NCBI GenBank assembly: GCA_945957135.1 | Contig: CAMFLK010000011.1 | Location: 1-34,178 of the forward strand | Direction of reading: 5' to 3' | Source: an uncultured Rhodospirillales bacterium | Lineage (GTDB): Bacteria; Pseudomonadota; Alphaproteobacteria; Acetobacterales; Acetobacteraceae | DNA: 34,178 nt | Shown: positions 3,923 through 34,121 of the stretch, piece by piece | Layout: the number at the start of each line of letters is the position of its first letter | How positions within the stretch are numbered: the stretch's first letter is position 1 | The notes under the pieces: model-generated | The model's input: the letters and a program-made list of their open reading frames with translations, nothing else | Told to the model about the DNA's origin: nothing | The model's database searches: none | Program-made: the position numbers and the translations under genes

Positions 3923-5904
3923 TTCCGGAGACCGGGCATTTCGCGCTGGCGCTGGCGGTGGCGCTGGCCTTCGCCCAGGCGGTGCTGCCGCTATGGGGCG
4001 CCTGGCGGCGCGACGCGCGGCTGATGCAGGCGGCCCCTGCCCTGGCGCTGGGCCAGTTCCTCGCCCTCGCCGTGTCCTATGCCGCGCTGGTCTGGGTGAA
4101 CGTGGGCGACGATTTCTCGGTGCTCAACGTCGCCGAGAACAGCCACACGCTGAAGCCGCTGCTCTACAAGATCAGCGGCAGCTGGGGCAATCACGAGGGC
4201 TCCATCCTGCTGTGGTGCCTGGTGCTGGCCGGCTGCGGCGGGGCGGTCGCGCTGTTCGGCGGGCGGCTGCCGGCCAGCCTGCGGGCGCGGGTGATCGGCG
4301 TGCTCGGCGCCACCGCCGCGGGGTTCGAACTCTTCGCGCTGCTGGAGAGCAACCCCTTCCTGCGCATCTGGCCGCCGCCGATGGACGGGCGGGACATGAA
4401 CCCGCTGCTGCAGGACCCCGGCCTCGCGATCCATCCGCCCATGCTCTATGCCGGCTATGTCGGCTTCGCCATTCCCTTCGCCTTCGCCGTCGCCGCCCTG
4501 CTGGAGGGGCGGGTGGACGCCGCCTGGGGCCGCTGGGTGCGGCCATGGACGCTGGCCGCCTGGATCTGCCTGACGCTGGGCATCGCGCTCGGCTCCTGGT
4601 GGGCCTATTACGAGCTGGGCTGGGGCGGGTTCTGGTTCTGGGACCCGGTGGAGAACGCCTCGCTGCTGCCCTGGCTGACCGGCACGGCGCTGCTGCATTC
4701 CGCCGTGGTGGTGGAGAAGCGCGAGAGCCTGAAGGCGTGGACCGTGCTGCTGGCCATCGGCACCTTCTCGTTCAGCCTGTCCGGCACCTTCCTGGTGCGC
4801 TCGGGCATCCTCAACTCCGTGCACTCCTTCGCCAACGACCCCGCGCGCGGCGTGTTCATCCTCGGCCTGCTGGCGCTGGTGATCGGCACCTCGCTGGTGC
4901 TGTTCGCGGTGCGCGGCGCGGCCTTGGCCAGCACCGGCATCTTCGCGCCGATCTCGCGCGAGGGCGGGCTGGTGCTGAACAACATCCTGCTGTGCTCGAT
5001 CGCCGCGGTGGTGGTGAGCGGCACGCTGTTCCCGCTGTTCGCCGATCTGCTGTTCGGCGAGAAATTCAGCGTCGGCGCGCCGTTCTTCAACGCCACCGTG
5101 CTGCCGCTGGCGGTGCCGGTGTTCGCGGCGATGAGCGTGGGGCCGATGCTGTCGTGGAAGCGGGCGCGGCTGGCCCCGGCGCTGGCCAAGCTGTGGTGGG
5201 CGGCGCTGGGCGCGCTGGCGGCCGGGCTGATCGCCGCCCTGCACACCACCGCCCTGCCGGTGCTGGTGTTCGCCGCCGCGGCCTGGCTGGTGCTGGGCGC
5301 CGCGACCGACATCGTGGAGCGCATCCGCCTGTTCCGCCTGCCGATCGCCGACAGCCTCGCCCGGCTCGCCGCGCTGAAGCCCGCGGTGTTCGGCGCGGCG
5401 CTGGCCCATGCCGGGCTGGGGGTGAGCATCGCGGGCATCGCCGGCGCCGCGCTGGCCGAGGACGCCATCGTGCTGGCGCGGGTCGGTGAGACCGTTCAGG
5501 TCGGCGGCTACGATTTCACGCTGGAACGGTTGCGCGACGCGCCCGGCCCGAATTACGCCGCCCGCGTCGCGGATATCCGCGTCAGCCGGAATGGGCATGT
5601 GGTCACCACCCTGTCGCCCGAGCGGCGGTCCTTCCCGGTGCAGCGCATGACGACGACGGAGGCCAAGATCCGCACCGACGGACTCACCGATCTCTACGTG
5701 GTGCTGGGCGAGGAGCGCGACGGCGGCGCCGTGCTGCGCCTGCACCACAACCCGTTCGCGCCATGGATATGGATCGGCGCCGCCATCATGGCCTTCGGCG
5801 GCCTGCTCTCGCTGGCCGACCGCCGGTTGCGGGTGGGCGCGCCGCTGCGCCAGCCCCGCCCGGCCGGGCTGCGGACCCCCTCTGAAGGAACGCCGGCCGA
5901 ATGA
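3919..5904 (+). CDS. ccmF: Cytochrome c haem lyase subunit CcmF
   Basis: 661-residue multi-spanning inner-membrane protein, the normal length for CcmF, which attaches haem from CcmE to apocytochrome c CXXCH sites. The tryptophan-rich signature WGGFWFWDPVEN is at 235-246, preceded by LGSWWAYYELG. Other conserved stretches are KPLLYKISGSWGNHEGS, IHPPMLYAGYVG and TFSFSLSGTFLVRSGILNSVHSF. A large periplasmic loop lies near the C-terminus before a last span (WIWIGAAIMAFGGLLSLADRR). ATG chosen at 3919 because it overlaps the ccmE stop (ATGA) and gives the normal MIPETGHFAL N-terminus. Confidence 0.97.
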   Translation: MIPETGHFALALAVALAFAQAVLPLWGAWRRDARLMQAAPALALGQFLALAVSYAALVWVNVGDDFSVLNVAENSHTLKPLLYKISGSWGNHEGSILLWCLVLAGCGGAVALFGGRLPASLRARVIGVLGATAAGFELFALLESNPFLRIWPPPMDGRDMNPLLQDPGLAIHPPMLYAGYVGFAIPFAFAVAALLEGRVDAAWGRWVRPWTLAAWICLTLGIALGSWWAYYELGWGGFWFWDPVENASLLPWLTGTALLHSAVVVEKRESLKAWTVLLAIGTFSFSLSGTFLVRSGILNSVHSFANDPARGVFILGLLALVIGTSLVLFAVRGAALASTGIFAPISREGGLVLNNILLCSIAAVVVSGTLFPLFADLLFGEKFSVGAPFFNATVLPLAVPVFAAMSVGPMLSWKRARLAPALAKLWWAALGALAAGLIAALHTTALPVLVFAAAAWLVLGAATDIVERIRLFRLPIADSLARLAALKPAVFGAALAHAGLGVSIAGIAGAALAEDAIVLARVGETVQVGGYDFTLERLRDAPGPNYAARVADIRVSRNGHVVTTLSPERRSFPVQRMTTTEAKIRTDGLTDLYVVLGEERDGGAVLRLHHNPFAPWIWIGAAIMAFGGLLSLADRRLRVGAPLRQPRPAGLRTPSEGTPAE

Positions 5905-32619: not shown

Positions 32620-32938
32620 CGTCTGTCTCCTGGCCGCCCGCGCCCGCCTGCCGGCGCGGAAACTCTGGCCTTGACGCGTTTATATAGGCAGGCGCATCTC
32701 ATGGGGAAAGACATTCGTGCGCGGCGGGCGTTACGCGGCCCAGCAATGCCTTTCTTACAGGAATGCAATTGCGACCCCGGCTTGAACGACATGCGCATTG
32801 GACCACATCTGCGCCATGGTCCTGTAATGTGGACTGTCGTAGAAACAGTTCGAGCGCAGGTGGCCGACCGGTAAGGCGGGCCGCAGGCAACCCAATTCGG
32901 GCCACGAGCTGTGTGCCCCAACTGAGAGAGCAAGTGTC
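32620..32938. other. Divergent intergenic region
   Basis: 319 nt between the peroxidase (minus) and the repeat lipoprotein (plus), which must contain promoters for both. A TATATAAA-type -10 candidate for the peroxidase lies at about 32679-32686 read on the minus strand. A 57-codon frame 32701-32874 exists but has no ribosome site and no recognisable product. No RNA gene or clear operator is seen. Confidence 0.5.
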
Positions 32939-34033
32939 ATGACCAAGTCCCGTCTGTTGTCCGCCACCGCCGCGGCGGCCCTGCTCGTCGGCCTGGCTGC
33001 CTGTGCGACCAACCCGCCGCAGACCGCCGCCGTCGCCCCTGCGCCGGCCCCTGCCGGCACCGTGACGACCGCCGCCGGTGAGGGCGGCGCGATGCGCACC
33101 GCCGCTGGTGAGGGTGGCGCCATGCGCGTCGCCGCTGGTGAAGGTGGGGCCATGCGCACCGCCGCTGGTGAGGGTGGCGCCATGCGCACCGCCGCCGGTG
33201 AGGGTGGCGCCATGCGCGTCGCCGCCGGTGAAGGTGGGGCCATGCGCACCGCCGCCGGTGAGGGTGGCGCCATGCGCGTCGCCGCTGGCGAAGGTGGCGC
33301 CATGCGCACCGCCGCCGGTGAGGGTGGTGCGATGCGCGTCGCCGCTGGCGAAGGTGGCGCCATGCGCACCGCCGCCGGTGAAGGTGGCGCCATGCGCACC
33401 GCCGCCGGTGAAGGTGGCGCCATGCGCACCGCCGCTGGCGAAGGTGGCGCCATGCGCGTCGCCGCTGGCGAAGGTGGGGCCATGCGCACCGCCGCCGGTG
33501 AGGGTGGTGCCATGCGCACCGCCGCCGGTGAGGGTGGTGCCATGCGCACCGCCGCCGGTGAAGGTGGGGCCATGCGCACCGCCGCCGGTGAGGGTGGCGC
33601 GATGCGTGTCGCCGCTGGCGAAGGTGGGGCCATGCGCACCGCCGCCGGTGAAGGTGGCGCCATGCGTGTCGCCGCCGGTGAGGGTGGCGCCATGCGCACC
33701 GCCGCCGGTGAGGGTGGCGCGATGCGTGTCGCCGCTGGCGAAGGTGGGGCCATGCGCACCGCCGCCGGTGAAGGTGGCGCCATGCGTGTCGCCGCCGGTG
33801 AGGGTGGCGCCATGCGCGTCGCAGCCGGTGAAGGTGGCGCGGTCCGCACCGCCGCCGGTGAGGGTGGCGCCATGCGCGTCGCCGCCGGTGAAGGTGGCGC
33901 GGTTCGCACCGCCGCCGGTGAGGGTGGCGCCATGCGCGTCGCCTCCGCCAAGGGCCGTCCCGCGCGCATGTCCGCCACCGACATGCTCAACCAGAAGGAG
34001 CTGGACCGGGTGCACGGCCAGCCCGCGCAGTAA
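32939..34033 (+). CDS. Lipoprotein with 29 tandem decapeptide repeats
   Basis: 364 residues. A lipoprotein signal peptide ends in lipobox LAAC with C22 (MTKSRLLSATAAAALLVGLAAC), then a proline/alanine-rich linker to residue 43. Residues 44-333 are 29 perfect-length repeats of [T/V]AAGEGGA[M/V]R; M changes to V in two late copies. A 31-residue unique tail (ASAKGRPARMSATDMLNQKELDRVHG) ends the protein. Each unit carries one Glu and one Arg, so the array is net neutral with regular charge alternation. No known family; likely an outer-membrane-anchored, extended or peptidoglycan-spanning protein. GAGAGAGC lies upstream of the ATG. Confidence 0.88.
   Translation: MTKSRLLSATAAAALLVGLAACATNPPQTAAVAPAPAPAGTVTTAAGEGGAMRTAAGEGGAMRVAAGEGGAMRTAAGEGGAMRTAAGEGGAMRVAAGEGGAMRTAAGEGGAMRVAAGEGGAMRTAAGEGGAMRVAAGEGGAMRTAAGEGGAMRTAAGEGGAMRTAAGEGGAMRVAAGEGGAMRTAAGEGGAMRTAAGEGGAMRTAAGEGGAMRTAAGEGGAMRVAAGEGGAMRTAAGEGGAMRVAAGEGGAMRTAAGEGGAMRVAAGEGGAMRTAAGEGGAMRVAAGEGGAMRVAAGEGGAVRTAAGEGGAMRVAAGEGGAVRTAAGEGGAMRVASAKGRPARMSATDMLNQKELDRVHGQPAQ
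33068..33937 (+). repeat. 29 x 30-bp tandem repeat
   Basis: Units start at each ACC or GTC codon and are exactly 30 bp. Synonymous variants (GGT/GGC, GAG/GAA, GCG/GCC) mark higher-order duplications: 33571-33696 is identical to 33691-33816 (period 120 bp, four units), and 33841 onward repeats at 33901 with a 60-bp period. This indicates growth by slippage or unequal recombination, in frame. Confidence 0.96.
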
Positions 34034-34058
34034 CCCGGTCAGCTTGGCTTTTTCGATC

Positions 34059-34094
34059 GCGGCCGGCGGGACTTCCCGCCGGCCGCTTTCGTTT
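34059..34094 (+). terminator. Rho-independent terminator of the repeat lipoprotein gene
   Basis: Perfect 12-bp stem GCGGCCGGCGGG (34059-34070) / CCCGCCGGCCGC (34075-34086), ACTT tetraloop, followed by TTTCGTTT. It is 26 nt after the lipoprotein stop. Confidence 0.9.
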
Positions 34095-34121
34095 CGGGGA
34101 ACCGGCTGCTAGACCGCCGGG

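Follow-up and report, generated by a model that had tools for sequence, protein, structure and literature searches.

Introduction

Short repeats are already known as the building material of some lipoproteins and of membrane-anchored antigens able to vary in length in frame, exemplified by neisserial Lip and the multiple-banded antigen (MBA) of Ureaplasma. Lip (the H.8 antigen) and the N-terminal domain of Laz carry AAEAP repeats, the amino-terminal part of these lipoproteins being rich in short Ala/Glu repeats (PMC9239064). MBA, from a host-associated, wall-less bacterium, carries a variable number of uniform short repeats (QPAGKE) behind its signal peptide and membrane anchor, and its size variation has been shown (PMC3047005). 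A further point of comparison is provided by the Gly-rich passengers of the autotransporters AIDA, TibA and Ag43, which are secreted by the type V route and accompanied by a beta-barrel. The repeats of these passengers are ~19 residues long.

Here we analyse a repeat lipoprotein gene on the forward strand of a 34,178-nt contig (C11, hereafter the window) from an uncultured Rhodospirillales bacterium. Like Lip and Laz, the predicted product is a lipoprotein rich in short Ala- and Glu-containing repeats. However, its unit is a Gly-rich decapeptide, [T/V]AAGEGGA[M/V]R, present 29 times and followed by a C-terminal helix, whereas the neisserial unit is a Pro-containing pentapeptide of different sequence. 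AAEAP is absent and membership of the Lip/H.8 group was rejected; the neisserial array is also much shorter. As in MBA, uniform in-frame repeats follow a predicted membrane anchor, with no sequence similarity claimed, although size variation was shown in Ureaplasma and the host genus is represented here by one genome. Likeness to the autotransporters lies in the Gly-rich nature of the repeats and in weak matches by tblastn (28-29% identity) and by fold but, unlike them, this protein is a predicted lipoprotein with no barrel. Indeed, an AIDA-type autotransporter was rejected because no Pfam barrel model matched and the protein ends 21 residues after a degenerate unit. Judged by its sequence, the protein is a new family, unrelated to Lip or MBA, and ordinary as a kind, the repeat-built lipoprotein.

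The gene and its product

The open reading frame (32939-34033, + strand) encodes 364 amino acids and begins at an ATG with a purine-rich GAGAGAG ~10 nt upstream. The N-terminus reads MTKSR-LLSATAAAALLVG-LAAC, with the lipobox and Cys of a bacterial lipoprotein (an Lgt/LspA substrate). The signal peptide MTKSRLLSATAAAALLVGLAAC, with its lipobox LAAC, occupies 32939-33004, and Cys22 (codon 33002-33004) is the predicted lipidated residue. LspA was found in the source genome, and these features together bear out, at sequence level, the lipoprotein reading made in a preliminary description of this DNA. An Ala/Pro-rich linker ATNPPQTAAVAPAPAPAGTVT (residues 23-43; 33005-33067) leads into the 29 in-frame 30-bp units (residues 44-333; 33068-33937), after which VASAKGRPAR (residues 334-343; 33938-33967) looks like a decayed 30th unit. 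The protein ends in a 21-amino-acid tail, MSATDMLNQKELDRVHGQPAQ (33968-34030), with a helix predicted at residues 346-359. Downstream, on the same strand, lies a strong intrinsic terminator hairpin of 12 G-C pairs followed by TTTCGTTT (34059-34086), and the contig stops 145 bp past the gene. A simple scan found no sigma-70-like promoter for the gene, a result that says little in a GC-rich alphaproteobacterium. The mature protein would be ~31.4 kDa, with Ala and Gly contributing more than half of its residues and each unit supplying roughly one Glu and one Arg. Taken together, 32939-34033 is probably a genuine protein-coding gene for a predicted exported lipoprotein.

The repeat array

Tandem Repeats Finder placed the array at 33068-33937 with a period of 30, 29.0 copies, 0% indels and a score of 1208, far exceeding chance. 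Read one by one, the units comprise 18 TAAGEGGAMR, nine VAAGEGGAMR and two VAAGEGGAVR, accounting for 290 of the 364 residues (80%). The earlier account of 29 decapeptides of equal length, filling about 80% of the protein and preserving the frame through a 30-bp unit, is upheld by this result and by the reading of the frame and array together.

The units carry distinguishing synonymous markers, and at offsets other than 120 bp all exact runs within the array are shorter than 60 bp. At 120 bp, units 18-21 (33578-33697) and units 22-25 (33698-33817) are identical at 120/120 bp, forming an exact four-unit tandem duplication (33578-33817). The exact repeat at this offset measures 129 bp (33569-33697 = 33689-33817), reaching 9 bp upstream of the duplicated block; the block duplication and its 120-bp period were thus described correctly at the outset, but the length then given for the identical stretch, 126 bp, was not. 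T and V units also alternate more than expected by chance (p 0.008; p 0.037 after collapsing the recent duplication). The duplication is seen in the assembled sequence, and its reality in the cell hinges on a fragmented assembly of 422 contigs. This assembly resembles one from short reads; arrays of this kind may be collapsed or broken in it, and the count of 29 units is not firm, with error possible in either direction.

A second gene copy on contig C335

A search of the source genome revealed a second copy at bases 1-243 of contig C335 (L038; G000:C335). Its five assembled units, VAAGEGGA[M/T]R, are all of the V type, the first being incomplete, and T and M alternate save for a final M-M. 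Since C335 starts inside the array, the five units represent the assembled part only and the N-terminus is cut off by the contig end; the own-genome search found no other N-terminal piece for this copy. The array gives way to VASAKGKPVR and then to the tail MSATDMLNQKELERVTGRPAQ, which matches that of the window gene at 18/21 residues, and what had at first been called a 'conserved-looking tail' is conserved between the two copies. By reading, an inverted repeat like the terminator of the window gene lies 3' of the second copy. The genes further downstream, a LysR-type regulator (by sequence) and two PEP-CTERM proteins, are unlike the flanks of the window gene, and the C335 copy is therefore a separate locus. 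Two features of the assembled arrays show that they get remodelled: the 120-bp duplication in the window gene, and the M/T alternation of the exclusively V-type units in the second copy.

The sense frame is the coding frame

Comparison of the units in the sense frame gave pS 0.31 and pN 0.055, with nearly all of pN coming from the T/V codon; without this codon the values were 0.35 and 0.010. Variation is almost wholly synonymous, and the decapeptide has therefore been held constant. Frames out of phase with the sense frame gave pN/pS ~2 over the array. However, the wobble-aligned antisense frame, the third positions of which coincide with those of the sense frame, also gave a pN/pS of 0.27 within the array, so that the array alone is a weaker proof of coding and does not fully settle the strand. 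The second copy does so: comparing the tails copy with copy in the sense frame gave pS 0.40 and pN 0.11 (pN/pS ~0.27), which favours sense, and the wobble-aligned antisense frame meets a stop codon inside the second copy. The signal peptide and terminator are both consistent with the sense frame.

Long open frames also overlap the array at 32699-34015 (-), 32755-33990 (-) and 33078-34112 (+) of the window. Such frames are a mechanical by-product of a stop-free 30-bp period and are liable to be mis-annotated as genes; because the tails speak for the sense frame, the antisense and shifted frames were rejected as genes.

Distribution

Pfam returned no accepted match, for the tail included, and NCBIfam returned nothing. 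A match to the histone H1-like HC2 family (PF07382) was rejected as low-complexity, at 25.2 bits against a gathering cut-off of 40, as was a pentapeptide repeat protein, the Pfam pentapeptide models being unmatched at E <= 1. A sequence search of the PDB yielded designed propellers, matched through repetitiveness at E 0.0003 or worse, and a literature search for decapeptide-repeat lipoproteins turned up nothing relevant.

Outside its own genome, a search for relatives gave weak low-complexity matches only, and a contig scan across genomes found no homologue. A two-unit pattern run against 397 genomes of the family hit three of them, once each and with 2 mismatches, a rarity equal to that of a reversed-pattern control. 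For the tail, 150 genomes of the family and 385 of the class were searched, yielding a pair of borderline matches (E 0.04 and 0.009), which is chance level for such a number of genomes; array plus tail, in the 385 class genomes, matched its own genome alone. Plasmids, phages and viral contigs produced low-identity Gly-rich or low-complexity matches only. With no accepted Pfam or NCBIfam match and no homologue found outside the source genome, the initial impression that the protein belongs to no described family was borne out.

The repeat lipoprotein gene is adjoined by a peroxidase-like gene, the relatives of which occur in uncultured Acetobacteraceae and Rhodospirillales and therefore place the host there. 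At 17 loci carrying a relative of this gene (Acetobacteraceae, Rhodospirillales and one unclassified alphaproteobacterium), no array of more than 4 copies was found nearby and no similar lipoprotein was seen. Among the genomes searched, in which the host genus is represented by a single species and genome, the repeat lipoprotein is apparently restricted to the lineage of its host, a member of the Acetobacteraceae; close relatives outside this sample may carry it.

A spacer model and its alternatives

These results are consistent with a model, which we hold to be the likely one, whereby the protein acts as a lipid-anchored, extended Gly/Ala spacer that could change length in frame, ending in a short helix. 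Lgt and LspA would process Cys22, and the processed protein would be sorted to the outer membrane because residue +2 is Ala, not Asp. The Gly/Ala-rich array, in which each unit contributes a single Glu and a single Arg, would then stretch out as a low-complexity stalk ~300 residues long, either flexible or rich in beta structure, and keep the C-terminal helix off the membrane. The length of the stalk would alter, with the frame intact, through slippage or unequal recombination between the 30-bp units. We infer that the role is most likely structural rather than enzymatic, the protein serving the cell envelope as a spacer or a coat.

A more ordered array, namely a true beta-solenoid, possibly with two decapeptides per coil, that forms a stiff fibre at the surface or a stalk resembling an adhesin, comparable to the TibA/AIDA or curli repeats, is possible but doubtful. 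AlphaFold2, run on the single sequence, did build a beta-solenoid of 30 strands (strands AMR[T/V]AA, turns GEGG), with an array pLDDT of ~90 and a best-model pTM of 0.73, and the T/V alternation described above is favoured by a 20-residue coil. Against this, the five models ranged in mean pLDDT from 81.7 down to 31.5, and when given perfect random repeats AlphaFold2 is documented to return beta-solenoids that are confident yet unrealistic (Pratt et al, 2025; PMC11795689). A control model of the array translated from the antisense strand was also beta-rich but reached a pLDDT of only ~60, a contrast that leans towards a true solenoid; because the control repeats are less regular than those of the sense protein, the contrast is suggestive rather than decisive. 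Foldseek found nothing in the PDB at E <= 0.001, the nearest solved folds being the solenoids of TibA, Ag43 and CsgA, and matched the antisense control to other beta-helices, more weakly still. In a viral structure library, several matches were to solenoid models of collagen-like proteins; such proteins probably do not form solenoids in reality, which points to the same artefact. The structure prediction called for in the preliminary description thus returned a confident solenoid, but one of a type documented as an artefact for near-perfect repeats. The 'anchored ruler or surface filament' proposed there goes beyond these results, which do not locate the protein at the outer face, and the solenoid is of the kind that AlphaFold2 invents for near-perfect repeats (PMC11795689). 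A fuller version of the ordered reading, in which two genes of a lineage-restricted family encode lipid-anchored beta-solenoid rods of 10-residue repeats, with two decapeptides per coil and a length tuned by in-frame gain or loss of 30-bp units, seems distinctly improbable.

We also think it unlikely that the protein is a periplasmic tether or ruler, the C-terminal helix of which contacts peptidoglycan or a protein partner while the repeat number sets the envelope distance. The tail is indeed the conserved non-repeat part between the copies and is predicted to be helical, but it matches no Pfam family and the protein ends in PAQ, lacking the terminal Lys for a Braun-type linkage. Equally, an expansion of little function, with slippage enlarging GC-rich repeats inside a short lipoprotein gene and the growth tolerated for staying in frame, would fit the exact recent block duplication and the lineage-restricted distribution; the accumulation of synonymous differences while the peptide stayed constant in both copies, and the retention of two copies, make such a minisatellite expansion a poor candidate. 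That the array was created or misjudged by the assembler, as the 422 contigs, the C335 start inside the array, the proximity of the gene to the end of C11 and the sequence CTGTCTCTTATACACATCTGACGCTGCCGACGA at the C335 end (L038 about 4146-4183), which we take to be a Nextera adapter left uncut in the assembly, might suggest, is very improbable given the distinct synonymous markers of the units, exact runs below 60 bp except at the 120-bp offset, and a second locus of the same architecture with different flanks.

The gene is a compact, clearly coding case of a lineage-restricted repeat lipoprotein, and the presence of two arrays in one genome lets unit turnover and selection in one copy be set against those in the other. 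Should the solenoid be real, the protein would be an unusually simple natural rod; if not, it would be a clean natural example of the AlphaFold2 repeat artefact. Finally, we noted that the PEP-CTERM genes adjoining the second copy (L038 1469-2071 and 2236-2817) are not isolated, there being 22 PEP-CTERM matches above cut-off in the whole genome, which suggests an exosortase-type surface or biofilm system.
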